Both the position numbers and the translations under genes were made by a program. From Peptidiphaga gingivicola (lineage in GTDB: Bacteria > Actinomycetota > Actinomycetes > Actinomycetales > Actinomycetaceae), in contig NZ_LVZK01000001.1 in NCBI RefSeq assembly GCF_001652275.1, forward strand, positions 372,001 through 436,000: DNA of 64,000 nt, written 5' to 3'. Of this stretch, positions 45,441 to 60,185 are shown piece after piece (the first letter of the stretch is position 1; each line of letters starts with the position of its first letter). Below the pieces are notes generated by a model. That model searched no databases and was not told the origin of the DNA. It was given only the letters and a program-made list of their open reading frames with translations.

Positions 45441-47246
45441 ATGCACAACAATCGCGTTCCTCGGCGGACTCGTCGCTCGCTCGCCACCGCAACAGTTCTC
45501 ACCGCGGCCGCCGCACTGGCCGCCGCGCCCCTGTTCAGCGCGTCGGCCTTCGCGGCTCACGAGTCTGCGCCGGGAAGCATCTCGCGACTCGAGCCAGCCA
45601 AGCCCGCCCAGCTCACAGGTTCGGCGGAATGGGGCCTGCGTCAGAGTTTCCGCAGCTACATCAAGACCGGTCCGGCACACGGAAGCTGGGAGCTTCTCGA
45701 CGGCGCGACCGGGGAATTCAACTTCCCGGTGGACGACGGACAGTCGATCACCGCCGAAACCCCCGGAACGATCACATTCAAGGGCGGTGTGCACTTCACC
45801 GGGCACGACGGCCAGCTCGACATCACGATCGCCAACCCGGTCGTGAAATTCACCGGCCCGGACACCGCCGATTTGCTCCTCAACGTCAAGAGCAAGGCGA
45901 TGGGCGCTGCCGACGTCACCGACTACGGTCAGATCGAGTTCGCCAAGCTGAGCAACATCACGATTCAGCACGACGGCGAAAAGAAACTCACCGTGAAGGC
46001 TCCCAAGGTCGTCTTGACCGCGAAGGGCGCCCAGGGCTTTGCGAACTTCTACAAGGAGGGAACGGAGCTCGACCCCTTCAATTTCGAAATCAACGAAACG
46101 GCCGCCCCTTCGCCTACGCCTACGCCGACGCCGAGCCCCACGGACCCAGCGCCCAGCCCGACCGACCCGTCGCCCTCGCCGACACCGACACCGGACCCCT
46201 CGCCCAGCGACCCGGCACCCAGCCCGACGGACCCGGCGCCCAGCCCGACCGACCCGTCGCCCTCGCCGACACCGACACCGGACCCCTCGCCCAGCGACCC
46301 GGCACCCAGCCCGACCGACCCGTCGCCCTCGCCGACACCGACACCGGACCCCTCGCCAAGCCCCACCAAGCCAACGCCGAGCCCAACCGACCCGGCGCCC
46401 AGCCCCACCAATCCGTCGCCCTCGCCGACACCGAGCCCGACCGACCCGGCCCCTTCGCCGACTCCGACACCGGATCCCTCGCCCAAGCCTCCGGCTGACA
46501 ACAGCCAGAAGCCGATCGCGGATCTCTGCTTGGCCGATGATGCCTGCAACCTCTACTTCGCAGATCAGTTCCCGGCCTCCATCGCGAAGCTCGGCATGAA
46601 GATCCCTGCGGGCGGCGAGGTCATCGCGGGTGACTGGGACGGCGACGGCGTTTCGACCGTCGCGATCCGCAACGGCGAGAACTACACCTTCTACGATTCC
46701 AACCGGTCTGACGCGAAGACCACCACTGCGACCTTCCCCGGAACGGGATCGGGTCAGGTGCTCGTGGCCGACTTCAACGGCGACAAGAAGGACGACATCG
46801 CCGTCAAGAACGGCAACGTCTTCTCGATCAAGTACAACGCCACCGCCTCGGGCGCGGCCGACGCCGCCGTTCCCTACGGCAAGGCTGAGGATTACGGCCT
46901 CGCGGGCGACTGGGACGGCGACGGCAAGGCCACCCTCGGCGTCCGCCGCGGGTACACCAACCTCCTTCGAGACACCCTGACGGGCGGCGAGGCCGATCGC
47001 ACCTTCGCCTACGGGCGCAACGACGACGTCGCATACGTCGGCGACTGGAACGGCGACGGCAAGGACACCGTGGCCGTCCGACGCGGTGCGACCCTGTTCG
47101 TGAAGAACGCCCTCTCCGGAGGCGACGCAGACACGTCCTTCACCTACGGGCGGGCCAGTGACAAGCTCGTCGTGGGCGACTGGACCGGCACGGGCAAGGA
47201 CACCGTGGCCGTCGTACGCGAGCAAGCAAAGGGCGGCCTTGGCTGA
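45441..47246 (+). CDS. Secreted HtaA-domain (haem-binding) protein with Pro-rich repeats and FG-GAP-like repeats
   Basis: 601 aa. Signal peptide 1-38 with SASAFAAHE cleavage region. Residues about 58-220 form an HtaA domain: [17 protein letters not shown], then [10 protein letters not shown] and [17 protein letters not shown], the corynebacterial haem-binding fold. Residues about 228-355 are Pro/Ser/Thr/Asp repeats ([19 protein letters not shown] type). The rest has five GDWDGDG / [10 protein letters not shown] motifs, as in FG-GAP/VCBS-like calcium-binding beta repeats. The ends lack a sortase signal, so anchoring may be by other means. Probably haem capture or surface binding; separated from the siderophore operon at 54762. 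Confidence 0.88.
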
Positions 47247-54761: not shown

Positions 54762-55772
54762 ATGACATCTCGCCTCTCGCGCGTTCTTGCAGCGCTTCTT
54801 CTCACGCTGACGACGTTCTTGTCAGCGTGCTCCTCGGACTCGAAAGACGCGACGTCGTCGGACGGGGCATCGAACTCCTCGGGAGCGGAATCGGGGACCT
54901 GGCCTCGGAAAATCAAGCACGAAAAAGGAGAGCTGACGCTCAAAAGCAAACCGAAGAGAATCGTGTCGACGTCGGTGACCCTCACGGGGACCCTTCTGGC
55001 GATCGACGCTCCGGTCAAGGCCTCGGCCGCCACGACCCCGTCGAACATAACCGACGACAAAGGCTTCTTCTCCCAGTGGTCCTCCATCGCCAAGAAAAAA
55101 GGCGTCGACGTCCTCTACCCCAATCTCAAATTCGACAAGGAGGCGCTCATTGCGGCCAATCCCGACCTCGTGGTCATCGCGAGCTCGGGAGCGGACAGCG
55201 CCATCGACCATTACAAGGAGATAGCCGCCCAGTACCCGACGATCGTCGTCGACTATTCGAAGCAAACGTGGCAAGAGCTGTCGAAGCAACTCGGGGAGGC
55301 CACCGGCCAGGAGGCCAACGCCAAGAAAGCGACCGCGGACTTCGACAAGTACGTCGCCGACGCCGCCAAAAAGATCAAGGCGCCCGAGGGCAACGCCGCT
55401 GTCGTTTCCTACAACGGGCCGGGCAAGGAGCAGGGCGTGGCCAAGAAGAGCGGGCCGCAAAGCAGGCTTTTGGAAAAGCTCGGCTTCAGGATCGTCGAGG
55501 CGCCCGCCGACCTCGAAGCGAGGAAGGACAAGCGCGGCGACTTTTCCTTTGTCACTCATGAGAACCTGACGAAAGCCGTCAATCCCCAGACCGTCTTCCT
55601 TTTGACGGGAGACCAGAAGACCGAGTCCTCCTTCCTGGCCGACCCGGTGGTCGCCAACATGCCGGCGGTCAAATCAAAGCAGGTCTACGGGCTCGGCCCC
55701 ACGTCGTTCAGGATCGACTATTACTCCGGCAAGCAAATGATCGACGCCGTCGTCAAGCGACTCGGTGGCTGA
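54762..55772 (+). CDS. Siderophore ABC transporter substrate-binding lipoprotein (FepB/FecB-like)
   Basis: 336 aa, ATG 54762 with GGGAG upstream. Signal peptide and lipobox LSAC (Cys22). Periplasmic-binding-protein type 2 of the helical-backbone class: RIVSTSVTLTGTLLAID, LIAANPDLVVIASSGADS, QTWQELSKQLGEATGQEANA, and late GLGPTSFRIDYYSGKQMID. Binds a ferric siderophore at the membrane. First gene of the uptake operon; the permease gene starts within its last codons. Confidence 0.92.
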   Translation: MTSRLSRVLAALLLTLTTFLSACSSDSKDATSSDGASNSSGAESGTWPRKIKHEKGELTLKSKPKRIVSTSVTLTGTLLAIDAPVKASAATTPSNITDDKGFFSQWSSIAKKKGVDVLYPNLKFDKEALIAANPDLVVIASSGADSAIDHYKEIAAQYPTIVVDYSKQTWQELSKQLGEATGQEANAKKATADFDKYVADAAKKIKAPEGNAAVVSYNGPGKEQGVAKKSGPQSRLLEKLGFRIVEAPADLEARKDKRGDFSFVTHENLTKAVNPQTVFLLTGDQKTESSFLADPVVANMPAVKSKQVYGLGPTSFRIDYYSGKQMIDAVVKRLGG

Positions 55773-56904
55773 CGGGCGCGCTGTGGCCGAGGCCTTCGGG
55801 GCCGGCGGAGAAGGCAAATCCGCCGTCGGCCCCGAAGGCGGGCCGAACCCGCCGGGCGCACGCGAATCCGACGGCCTCCGCGTAGGCAGGCCCCGAGGCG
55901 TTCGAGCCTTCGGCCTGCTGCCTTGGGCGGCGCTGTCGACCGGCCTGCTCGTCGCGCTTGCGGCCGCGAGCATCGCGACAGGCTCGCGGCTCGTGCCGCT
56001 GCACGAGGTCTGGGACGCGCTTTTCGACTTCGATCCGAAGAACGACGCCCACTTGGTGGTGCGCGAACTGAGGCTTCCGCGCACATTCACGGCAATCATG
56101 GCCGGCGCATGCCTGGGCCTGGCCGGGGCGCTCGCGCAATCGCTGACGCGCAACCCTCTGGCCGAGCCGGGAACGCTCGGCATCAGCCAGGGCGCGGCCT
56201 CCGGGGTGATCGTCGGCCTGTTCTTCACGAGCGCTTCGCACGTGGCCGTCTACGTCTGGTTCGCTTTCATCGGCGCCGCGCTGACCGGGGCCCTGGTTCA
56301 CAGGCTGGGGCGCGCCGAGACGGCCGGAACCAACCCGACGCGCCTCATCCTCGCGGGCGCCGCCCTGTCGATCGTGCTGTGGGCGCTCAACACGATTCTG
56401 CTCCTGGCCCAGCCTGCCTGGGTGCAGCAGATCTACAGGAATTGGGCGCTCGGATCGCTGGCGGGACGCGGCTGGGACAACCTCCCCGTCCTCATCGCCT
56501 GCCTGGCCGCGGGGGCGGCAGCTTCCTTCGCGCTGGCGCCCTCGCTCAATGCGGCGACGCTGGGCGCGGACATGTCGAAGGCGCTGGGCGTCAAGCCCCG
56601 CACCACGTCGGCTTTGACGAACCTCGCGATCATCGTGCTCGCGGGAGGCGCGACGGCAGCTGCGGGCCCCGTCGTCTTCGTCGGGATGGCCTGCCCGCAT
56701 GCGGCGCGGGCGCTGGCGGGAACGGACCACCGGCGCCTTCTCCCTTTCTCGGCGCTTCTCGGCGCAACGGCGACGCTGGCCTCGGACACGCTGGGGCGGA
56801 TCGTCGTCTATCCAGGGGAAGTCGGGGTGGGTGCGATGACGAGCATCATCGGAGCGCCCTTCTTCGTCTGGCTCGTTCGGCGCGGCAAGGTGTTGGGCCT
56901 GTGA
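55765..56904 (+). CDS. FecCD-family siderophore permease, subunit 1
   Basis: 379 aa from GTG 55765, overlapping the lipoprotein stop by 8 bp. A hydrophilic Gly/Ala/Pro N terminus of about 50 residues, then ten or so helices with the family pattern RELRLPRTFTAIMAGACLGL, SLTRNPLAEPGTLGISQGAA and GPVVFVGMACPHAARALAGT. FecCD-type permeases are heterodimeric with the next gene. Confidence 0.92.
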   Translation: MADGRAVAEAFGAGGEGKSAVGPEGGPNPPGARESDGLRVGRPRGVRAFGLLPWAALSTGLLVALAAASIATGSRLVPLHEVWDALFDFDPKNDAHLVVRELRLPRTFTAIMAGACLGLAGALAQSLTRNPLAEPGTLGISQGAASGVIVGLFFTSASHVAVYVWFAFIGAALTGALVHRLGRAETAGTNPTRLILAGAALSIVLWALNTILLLAQPAWVQQIYRNWALGSLAGRGWDNLPVLIACLAAGAAASFALAPSLNAATLGADMSKALGVKPRTTSALTNLAIIVLAGGATAAAGPVVFVGMACPHAARALAGTDHRRLLPFSALLGATATLASDTLGRIVVYPGEVGVGAMTSIIGAPFFVWLVRRGKVLGL

Positions 56905-56984
56905 GCGGGAAAGGGGCGGACGTGAACGGAGAAGGGGCGGATGTGAGCGGAAAAGGAACGGACCTGATCGGGAAGGAGGCGGAC
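56901..56984 (+). repeat. 21-bp tandem repeat carrying repeated SD-start-like modules
   Basis: Four in-frame 21-base units (GTGAGCGGGAAAGGGGCGG... and variants), each ending in a purine-rich AAGGGG or AAGGAGG plus CGGAC or CGGAT, followed at the next unit by GTG (third unit CTG). A partial fifth unit follows. Confidence 0.85.
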
Positions 56985-58064
56985 GTGAGCGGGAAAGTCA
57001 GGCACGCGCCTATTCCGCGCGGAGGAAGGAAAGCCCGGGGCAAAATCAGGATCGCGGCGGGCCCCGTTCGCCTGGAGGCGACGAGGAGTGCCCTCGTCGT
57101 CGGCGCGGCGGCCGCGGCGCTTCTCGCGGCCGTCGGCCTCGTGCACATCGGCACGGGCAGCACGCCCATCGGGGTCGAGGAAATCGTCAAGGCCCTTCTC
57201 GGACACTCCGGCGACGAACAGACTGTGCGCATCGTCGAGACCGTCCGCCTCCCCAGATTCGTCGCCGCCTTGGCAGTAGGAGCCGCACTCGGGGCGGCCG
57301 GCGCGGTTTTCCAATCGGTCTCTCGCAACCCTTTGGGCTCACCCGACGTCATCGGCTTCACCACGGGGGCCGCAACGGGAGGCATCGTCAGCGTGGCGGT
57401 GCTCGCAGGCGAAGCCCGAGAAACGGCGTTTGCGGCGACTTGCGGCGGAATGGCGACCGCGACGGCCGTTTACCTGCTCGCGCGGCGCGCCGGGCACAGC
57501 ACCGGATACCAACTGGTTCTCGTGGGCATCGGCGTCAGTTCTTTCTTGACGGCCGTCAACTCGCTCCTGCTCGCCTACGGCGACGCCGAGCAAACCGCCC
57601 TCGCGTCGATGTGGCTGTCCGGCTCGCTCAACGCACGCACATGGGAGCAGGCGCTTGTCGTAGCCGTCGCCGTCGTCCTCCTTGTGCCTGCGCTGTGCGG
57701 AATGTCGCGGCGCCTCGACATATTGGAGATGGGCGACGACCAGGCGACGCAGGCGGGGATCCGGCCCGAGCGCCTGAGGGTCGCCGCAATGCTCGCCGCG
57801 GTTGCCCTGACGTCGACCGCGGTGGCGGCCACCGGCCCCATCGCCTTCGTCGCTCTGGCCGCGCCGCAGGCCGTGGCAAGGCTGACCCGCAGCGGGCGCC
57901 TCCACATTTTCACGTCGGCGCTCATGGGCTCAACGATGCTCACGGCCGCCGACGTCGCCTCGATGCGCGTGCCCGTGGGCGTCGACGTGCCCGTCGGCCT
58001 GGCGACCGCGCTGATCGGCGGCGTGTATTTGCTGTGGCTCATCGCCCGGTCGCCGACGGTGTAG
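56901..58064 (+). CDS. FecCD-family siderophore permease, subunit 2
   Basis: 387 aa from GTG 56901, which overlaps the stop of subunit 1 by 4 bp (GTGA); GTG 56985 (359 aa) is preceded by AAGGAGG and may be the real start. The family motifs are intact: ETVRLPRFVAALAVGAALGA, SVSRNPLGSPDVIGFTTGAA and GPIAFVALAAPQAVARL. The first 28 codons are four 21-bp tandem repeats (VSGKGAD-type), each containing a GTG/CTG and a purine-rich AAGG sequence. Pairs with subunit 1. Confidence 0.92.
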   Translation: MSGKGADVNGEGADVSGKGTDLIGKEADVSGKVRHAPIPRGGRKARGKIRIAAGPVRLEATRSALVVGAAAAALLAAVGLVHIGTGSTPIGVEEIVKALLGHSGDEQTVRIVETVRLPRFVAALAVGAALGAAGAVFQSVSRNPLGSPDVIGFTTGAATGGIVSVAVLAGEARETAFAATCGGMATATAVYLLARRAGHSTGYQLVLVGIGVSSFLTAVNSLLLAYGDAEQTALASMWLSGSLNARTWEQALVVAVAVVLLVPALCGMSRRLDILEMGDDQATQAGIRPERLRVAAMLAAVALTSTAVAATGPIAFVALAAPQAVARLTRSGRLHIFTSALMGSTMLTAADVASMRVPVGVDVPVGLATALIGGVYLLWLIARSPTV

Positions 58065-58150: not shown

Positions 58151-58972
58151 ATGGACGGCGTCAAAAGAACGAAAGGCGGCGCGGGCAACCCGCTCGTCGG
58201 CCGCGGCCTGCACCTGGCCTACGGGAACACGACGGTCAGCAAAGAGCTCGACGTCGAAGTGCCCGCCCAGTCCTTTACGGCCGTCATCGGGCCGAATGCG
58301 TGCGGAAAATCGACCCTTTTGCGCGCTCTGTCGCGCCTCCTCGAACCGCGCGAGGGCACGGTGCTGCTCGACGGAAGGGAGATCGCCTCCTACCCGGCGA
58401 AGAAGGTCGCGCGCAGGCTCGGCCTCCTTCCTCAAAGCTCAAACGCGCCCCACGGCATCACGGTGCGCGACCTCGTCGCCCGCGGGCGGTTTCCCCACCA
58501 GTCGTTCTTCAGGCAGTGGTCGGCGAAGGACGACGCCGCCGTCGACGCCGCATTGGCCGCGACTCGGACGCTCGAGCTGGCCGACCGCGCGGTCGACAGC
58601 CTTTCCGGAGGCCAACGCCAACGCGCCTGGATCGCGCTCGTGCTGGCGCAGGAGACCCCTCTTCTCCTTCTCGACGAACCGACCACGTACCTGGACATCG
58701 CCCACCAGCTCGAGGTGCTCGACCTTTGCCGCAGCCTTCACGAATCCGGCGATTTTACGCTGGTTACGGTGCTCCACGACCTCAATCTCGCATTCCGCTA
58801 CGCCACCCATCTCATCGTCATGAAGGAAGGGCGCATCGCAGCCACCGGCGCACCGGCTGAAATCGTCACGGCGGAGCTCATCGACGAAATCTACGGAATC
58901 TCCTGCATGTGCATTCCCGACCCTCACACGGGGCTCCCGCTCGTCGTGCCGCTTGACGCCCGGCAAACCTGA
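58151..58972 (+). CDS. Siderophore ABC transporter ATP-binding protein (FepC-like)
   Basis: 273 aa, GAGGAG before ATG 58151. Walker A GPNACGKST (the usual Gly-Cys is Ala-Cys here), Q-loop LLPQSSN, signature LSGGQRQRAWIALVLAQE, Walker B LLLLDEPTTYLDIAHQ, H-loop VTVLHDLNLAFRY. The strict FepC-type pattern. Energises the two FecCD permeases; gene spaced 86 bases after the second one. The stop codon is embedded in a 24-bp palindrome. Confidence 0.95.
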   Translation: MDGVKRTKGGAGNPLVGRGLHLAYGNTTVSKELDVEVPAQSFTAVIGPNACGKSTLLRALSRLLEPREGTVLLDGREIASYPAKKVARRLGLLPQSSNAPHGITVRDLVARGRFPHQSFFRQWSAKDDAAVDAALAATRTLELADRAVDSLSGGQRQRAWIALVLAQETPLLLLDEPTTYLDIAHQLEVLDLCRSLHESGDFTLVTVLHDLNLAFRYATHLIVMKEGRIAATGAPAEIVTAELIDEIYGISCMCIPDPHTGLPLVVPLDARQT

Positions 58973-58991
58973 CCGCCGGCCGGCGGTCAGG
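58968..58991. repeat. 24-bp perfect palindrome at the end of the ATPase gene
   Basis: CCTGACCGCCGG directly followed by its complement CCGGCGGTCAGG; the TGA stop of the ATPase gene lies inside. It may act as a hairpin stabilising or attenuating the transcript before the reductase gene; no T-tract. Confidence 0.7.
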
Positions 58992-59174
58992 CGCGCGAGC
59001 CCGGCTACGCAAACCGTCCGCAGCGCAAACCATTCGCCGCCCGATCCCTCCGCCGCGCAGACCATCCACCGTACAGACCATCGGCCGCGCAGCCCATCCT
59101 CCACGCACCATCCACCGCGCAGCCTATCGGCCGCGCAGACCAAACAAAGCAGACAATTCAAAGAAAGGTCAGAA

Positions 59175-60185
59175 GTGCCTGACGCAAAACGAAATGCCGA
59201 CCATAACGACAACGACGCGCATGCTGGCAGCGACCCCCACAAACCGCGCGAAGGCCGCGAGCGCCACGAGAAGCATGAACGCCACGAGAGGCATGAACAC
59301 CATGAGCACTCCATAGACACGGAGGGGCTGCCCGCCGCCATCGTCGTGGAAAAGGTCAGCGACGTCACCCGCTCGATGCGGAGAATACGTTTCGCGGGCC
59401 CGGCCGTGGCGGGCTATCTCAGCCGCCCCAGGGTCCCGAACGTCAAGTTGTTTTTCCCCGACGGGCCCGTGCTCGACCTCCCGAAGTTCGGCGAACGCGG
59501 GCGGTACGCCTATGCGCCGGGCCAGCGCGAAAGGGTCAGAACGTACACGGTCCGCGCCTACAGCGTGGAGGAATCCTGGATGGACGTGGACTTCGTGCGG
59601 CACGGCGCGGGCTTGGCCTCCTCCTGGGCAGAGTCCGCCCGTCCGGGAGACGTCGTCGGCGCCGTCGGCGGGGGCGGCAGGCTCCCTCGGGCCTGCGACT
59701 GGATTCTCCTCATGGCCGACGACACGGGAGTTCCAGCACTTGCCGCGATCCTGGAGACTCTGCCCGAGGAGCAGCGGGGCGTTGCGCTCATCGAGGTCGA
59801 CGCCGAGGCCGACGAGCAGCCGCTCGCGTGCCCGCCCGGCGTGGCCGTGCGGTGGCTGCACCGGCAAGGTGCGGATCCGGCGGCGTCGCCCCTGCTGACG
59901 GAGGCCGGGAAGGCTCTCGAGCTCCCGCCGGACCTCAACGGCGTTTTCGCCTGGGTTTCGGCCGAGTCCCACGTGGTCCGCGACATGCGCAAAGACCTGC
60001 GCGATCGGGGAGTGCCGCGGCAAAACCAGCTCATCATAGGGTATTGGCACGCGGGCAGGGCGGAATCGGAGTATTCGGCGGAGTCGAACCATGATCGGGT
60101 GACCGACGAGTCGATGATCGCCATACCGGAAGCCTCGGCGCTGACCGCCGACTCCCTCGGCCGCGCAATGCGCGGCGCAGACTGA
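59175..60185 (+). CDS. Siderophore-interacting protein (FAD ferric-siderophore reductase, ViuB-like)
   Basis: 336 aa from GTG 59175 (VPDAKRNADHNDN), AAAGG upstream. FAD-binding motif RTYTVRAYSVEESWMDVDF, then GPASSWAE-like pattern seen as GAGLASSWAESARPGD, VGAVGGGGRLP and a C-terminal NAD(P)H-binding half with LLMADDTGVPALAAI. Reduces ferric siderophores in the cytoplasm to release iron. An unusual N-terminal stretch at about 30-45 is His/Glu/Arg-rich (HEKHERHERHEHHEH). The space to the ATPase gene (200 bases) has degenerate GCAGACCATC(C/G)GCCGCGC repeats. Confidence 0.9.
   Translation: MPDAKRNADHNDNDAHAGSDPHKPREGRERHEKHERHERHEHHEHSIDTEGLPAAIVVEKVSDVTRSMRRIRFAGPAVAGYLSRPRVPNVKLFFPDGPVLDLPKFGERGRYAYAPGQRERVRTYTVRAYSVEESWMDVDFVRHGAGLASSWAESARPGDVVGAVGGGGRLPRACDWILLMADDTGVPALAAILETLPEEQRGVALIEVDAEADEQPLACPPGVAVRWLHRQGADPAASPLLTEAGKALELPPDLNGVFAWVSAESHVVRDMRKDLRDRGVPRQNQLIIGYWHAGRAESEYSAESNHDRVTDESMIAIPEASALTADSLGRAMRGAD

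Follow-up and report, generated by a model that had tools for sequence, protein, structure and literature searches.

The start region of the second FecCD permease gene (FecCD2) in the analysed window (the whole stretch of DNA, 64 kb) carries a 21-bp tandem repeat at its junction with the upstream permease gene (FecCD1). We consider it probable that FecCD2 is translated from a single dominant start, GTG 56901, and that the repeat represents a coding minisatellite, kept in frame, within an N-terminal tail that tolerates insertions and in which minor internal starts are possible. Most likely, the array mainly lengthens a floppy, dispensable protein tail. The surrounding cluster resembles a siderophore-type ABC importer (binding protein, FecCD1, FecCD2, ATPase and siderophore-interacting protein) and belongs to a genome of 2.52 Mb in three contigs. 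Its genes and the repeat units are listed below; values of SD pairing are in kcal/mol.

54762..55772, + strand: periplasmic-binding-protein-type lipoprotein (PF01497)
55765..56904, + strand: upstream FecCD permease, FecCD1 (PF01032, E 4.5e-87; exact start uncertain)
56902..56904, + strand: FecCD1 TGA stop, with copies in the FecCD1 frame at 56923, 56944, 56965 and 56986
56901..58064, + strand: second FecCD permease, FecCD2, 387 aa from GTG 56901 (PF01032, E 8.1e-79, whole profile 1-311)
56901..56921, + strand: unit 1, GTGAGCGGGAAAGGGGCGGAC, codons GTG AGC GGG AAA GGG GCG GAC (VSGKGAD); its GTG is the putative coupled start overlapping the FecCD1 stop
56922..56942, + strand: unit 2, codons GTG AAC GGA GAA GGG GCG GAT (VNGEGAD); GTG, SD pairing -14.1
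56943..56963, + strand: unit 3, codons GTG AGC GGA AAA GGA ACG GAC (VSGKGTD); GTG, SD pairing -11.4; within the unit itself, the SD core is degraded (AAAGGAAC)
56964..56984, + strand: unit 4, codons CTG ATC GGG AAG GAG GCG GAC (LIGKEAD); CTG, SD pairing -7.1; its 3' end is AAGGAGG, then CGGAC
56985..56996, + strand: partial unit 5, codons GTG AGC GGG AAA (VSGK); GTG, SD pairing -16.9
58151..58972, + strand: ABC ATPase (PF00005)
58953..60185, + strand: siderophore-interacting protein ORF (PF04954/PF08021 domains; the real start is probably further in)

The array comprises 4.6 copies from 56901 to about 56997, i.e. four full units and a partial fifth, starting at 56901, 56922, 56943, 56964 and 56985. 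Its TRF score was 117, as compared with a top score of 68 in twenty second-order Markov controls of 64 kb each. The 21-bp tandem repeat that the original prediction had placed at the start of the second permease was thus confirmed by TRF and by frame translation, although the array runs to about 56996 and not to 56990. The unit start codons are, in order, GTG, GTG, GTG, CTG and GTG, all of them in the FecCD2 frame, and the 12 bases from 56985 are identical to unit 1. Units 1 to 4 end in the SD-like stretches AAAGGGG, GAAGGGG, AAAGGAA and AAGGAGG, followed by CGGAC, CGGAT, CGGAC and CGGAC, respectively. Unit-by-unit reading bore out that an in-frame GTG or CTG directly follows each unit end; the description of the ends as AAGGGG or AAGGAGG plus CGGAC or CGGAT holds for units 1, 2 and 4, but unit 3 has neither purine motif (AAAGGAA). 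The array is open throughout in the FecCD2 frame, and its period is a multiple of 3 within a protein-coding frame, as in an in-frame coding minisatellite.

GTG 56901 shares 4 nt with the FecCD1 stop (GTGA, 56901-56904), which constitutes an NTGA gene-pair overlap. The TGA recurs in every unit, the FecCD1 frame through the array reading L*AGKGRT*TEKGRM*AEKERT*SGRRRT*AGK, and the array therefore amounts to five successive NTGA overlaps; both the GTGA overlap and the repeated TGA had been missed earlier. Among the homologous junctions fetched (115 distinct ones), 99 had an in-frame start exactly at the NTGA overlap (59 ATG, 39 GTG and 1 TTG), and the same overlap was found in all 11 Actinomycetaceae orthologues with a readable junction (11/11). 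Because of this recurrence, GTG 56901 can be regarded as the inherited (ancestral) coupled start, with the array as a downstream expansion of the coding sequence. Only 2 of 437 candidate NTGA overlaps (this locus and one in Gulosibacter chungangensis) had an array with more than three copies at the junction; the overlaps came from 1.4 Mb of fetched DNA in which FecCD loci are over-represented.

The tail into which the array falls is variable in length. In nearly all homologues, 6 to 81 codons separate the start from the conserved G-P-x-R motif, and in the window there are 53; insertions are therefore tolerated. In an AlphaFold2 model of FecCD2 built with 40 sequences, mean pLDDT was below 50 for residues 1-40, and almost every residue of the stretch 1-35 stayed under this value. 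The first ordered element starts at residue 48 and the Pfam FecCD match at residue 74. The array-encoded tail is thus variable and is predicted to be disordered; since order begins only at residue 48, any candidate start would be expected to yield the whole ordered permease. Codon adaptation of the array is low (0.52, within the bottom 5% of windows). Weak translation would be in keeping with this as well, though the non-repetitive rest of the tail has an equally low value (0.51).

We propose that the minisatellite arose by duplication of a 21-bp stretch located where the stop and start of the two coupled permease genes overlap. After terminating on FecCD1, ribosomes would start again at the overlapping GTG 56901; translation of the array would place a Gly/Lys/Asp-rich heptapeptide tail, disordered and presumably cytoplasmic, before the first transmembrane helix. 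The SD-plus-GTG appearance of the unit would stem from the duplicated GTGA together with purine-rich GKG/GKE codons. The downstream GTGs, above all 56985, may yield a minor share of shorter, still complete permease. It is this main start, these minor isoforms and the absence of a selected function of the repeat that we infer. In native E. coli gene pairs studied with reporters, reinitiation fell by 40-80% when the start lay at +14 nt, and at +38 nt almost none was left (PMC10666635). Judged by these distances, 56901 would serve the coupled ribosomes and 56922, at +17 nt, would be used to a limited extent; initiation at 56943 and 56985 would have to be independent, on the SDs of these two starts.

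The pairing values were calculated against an actinobacterial 16S 3' end. Strong SD-like pairing precedes three of the four repeat-internal starts, and GTG 56985 has the strongest among the 1216 ATG/GTG in the 64-kb window. GTG 56901 is preceded only by a weaker AAGGTG inside FecCD1 (-7.7), so that the five ribosome-binding sites of the original prediction reduce to four repeat-borne SD-like sites. As for its five start sites, four are standard in-frame start codons, but the fourth candidate is a CTG, a poor start. Multiple starts are conceivable given the good SD-like pairing and the intact fold; neither the use of all of them nor tuning by repeat number is supported, in view of the homologous start at 56901, an SD strength that may largely follow from the peptide, the CTG behind a weak SD and the steep loss of reinitiation with distance from a stop. 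When the same peptide was recoded synonymously with the genome's own codon usage, mean SD pairing was at least as strong as observed in 8% of trials (joint p 0.083). The recoded peptide keeps strong pairing because GKG, GEG and GKE codons are purine-rich, and most of the SD strength may be due to the Gly/Lys/Glu-rich peptide. Compared with random mutants of the consensus, SD retention did not go beyond chance in unit 2 (0.43) or unit 3 (0.80), while the SD of unit 4 was improved beyond usual random mutation (0.019 before correction for three tests); the units share one ancestral sequence and are not independent evidence. RNA folding of the candidate starts gave no clear ranking.

Besides the low codon adaptation, three observations speak against the single dominant start: i) the pairing of GTG 56985 is far better than that of GTG 56901 (-16.9 vs -7.7), ii) among 156 sampled arrays, the unit-internal SD-start module is strongest in this one, which is located at a gene start, and iii) unit 4 shows the uncorrected SD gain. 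In one alternative, each unit would be a working SD plus GTG, and repeat number would set either total permease output or how the N-terminal lengths are mixed, possibly making this a contingency locus. The four standard in-frame start codons, the pairing before three of them (-14.1, -11.4 and -16.9), the predicted retention of the ordered fold in all products and a second in-frame duplicated SD plus ATG in the genome (L145:17481-17517) are in agreement with such multiplied modules, as is the A that follows every GTG/CTG of the array, a base reported in this position to consolidate start codons (PMC9841429). We nevertheless hold this to be unlikely, as SD strength is not significantly above that of synonymous recodings, the SD of unit 3 has decayed, the start of unit 4 is CTG, reinitiation drops steeply with distance in the native E. 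coli pairs (PMC10666635), and the 21-bp SD-start tandem pattern was absent from the two other genomes of the genus that were searched. Less likely still is an array of termination-reinitiation cassettes (TGA, GTG and SD) that would produce an isoform ladder, its repeat number adjusting the ratio of the two ABC permease subunits.

We give a similarly low chance to a shift of the start, by which FecCD2 would now begin mainly at GTG 56985 behind the strong AAGGAGG, leaving the first four units as untranslated spacer. The window's strongest pairing is located there, the 12 bases matching unit 1 mean that 56985 could carry the pre-duplication start, and codon adaptation of the array is low; however, the overlap start at 56901 is intact and conserved, some homologues have tails of similar length, and the array keeps the frame without a stop, periods divisible by 3 being the minority among intergenic arrays of this genome (see below). 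A MIRU-like mobile repeat inserted at the NTGA coupling site is highly improbable, since translation of the frames revealed no small ORF in the unit that ends in overlap with the downstream frame, and a genome search allowing up to 3 mismatches matched the array itself only, which rules out a dispersed element of this kind. MIRUs are also far longer than 21 bp. The position at a -4 overlap is the feature that such an insertion would account for, as described for mycobacterial MIRUs (PMC12548453).

The minisatellite background of the genome was assessed in a sample of 464 kb (the window and 20 further stretches), with genes called by a simple script and thus approximate. The sample contained 159 arrays, or 32 per 100 kb vs 17-20 in samples of two genus mates, a density about 1.6-1.9 times theirs. 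Of the 67 genic arrays, 64 (96%) had a period divisible by 3, vs 38 of the 85 intergenic ones (45%), and the 21-bp period fits coding because such multiples prevail in genic, not intergenic, arrays. Arrays at gene 5' ends were not significantly in excess (7 observed vs 5.0 expected). Elsewhere in the window, a long proline-rich coding-type array with 21/66/87-bp repeats occupies 46125-46467. At L136:6399-6451, a 19-bp repeat with an ATG per unit covers the sequence directly before a called gene start and continues into it, each copy shifting the frame.

Similar units also occur at other places in the genome. An intergenic 21-bp array of 6 copies (L125:2266-2389, G000:C1 ~645265-645388) contains AAGGGG plus GTG on the minus strand in most copies; the likely gene that comes next on its strand is more than 200 bp away. 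It follows that an SD-plus-GTG unit can arise without a start role. At L145:17481-17517 (minus strand, G000:C1 ~1832481-1832517), an exact 18-bp in-frame duplication, CAGATCGAGGTGAACATG, doubles an SD-like GAGGTG plus ATG at a gene start. In a family-wide search, 21-bp SD-start tandems matched in 14 of 200 genomes; as a reversed control pattern was about as common, most of these matches can be put down to chance or to GC-rich repeats.

Should the internal starts be in use, subunit stoichiometry or N-terminal length would be simple to change through slippage at a coupling overlap, with the promoter untouched. If they are not, the locus would be a clean example of how duplication at an NTGA overlap creates start sites that look convincing but are spurious, and on which automatic start annotation would go wrong; a simple gene caller indeed took 56922 over 56901 as the FecCD2 start.

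Literature searches on ribosome-binding sites borne by tandem repeats found nothing relevant, and the array is best compared with four known systems. Bacterial in-frame coding minisatellites (VNTRs) likewise consist of head-to-tail units in multiples of 3 that keep the frame in a disordered segment under low constraint, but the FecCD2 array begins exactly at the coupled start codon, and the sequence that it repeats includes the stop/start overlap and an SD-like stretch. With -4 nt NTGA termination-reinitiation pairs (PMC6728339, PMC10666635) it shares the GTGA overlap of two genes that run in the same direction and encode subunits of one complex, although here the overlap has four downstream copies, with TGA in one frame and GTG/CTG in the other. 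MIRUs also are repeats at -4 start/stop overlaps, yet they are dispersed, seemingly mobile and have their own small ORF, whereas the FecCD2 array is confined to a single locus and open in the downstream frame. The fourth system is the independent 18-bp in-frame array of Gulosibacter chungangensis (L102:3674-3790), located in the same N-terminal tail of the same gene, adjoining a GTGA coupled start and containing an in-frame GTG in most units; its unit is unrelated (VQxxQP-like), and the SD pairing of its repeat-borne GTGs is weak (-0.4 to -7.6). That arrays occur independently in the same FecCD2 tail favours tolerance over a conserved start device, even if both arrays adjoin the overlap.
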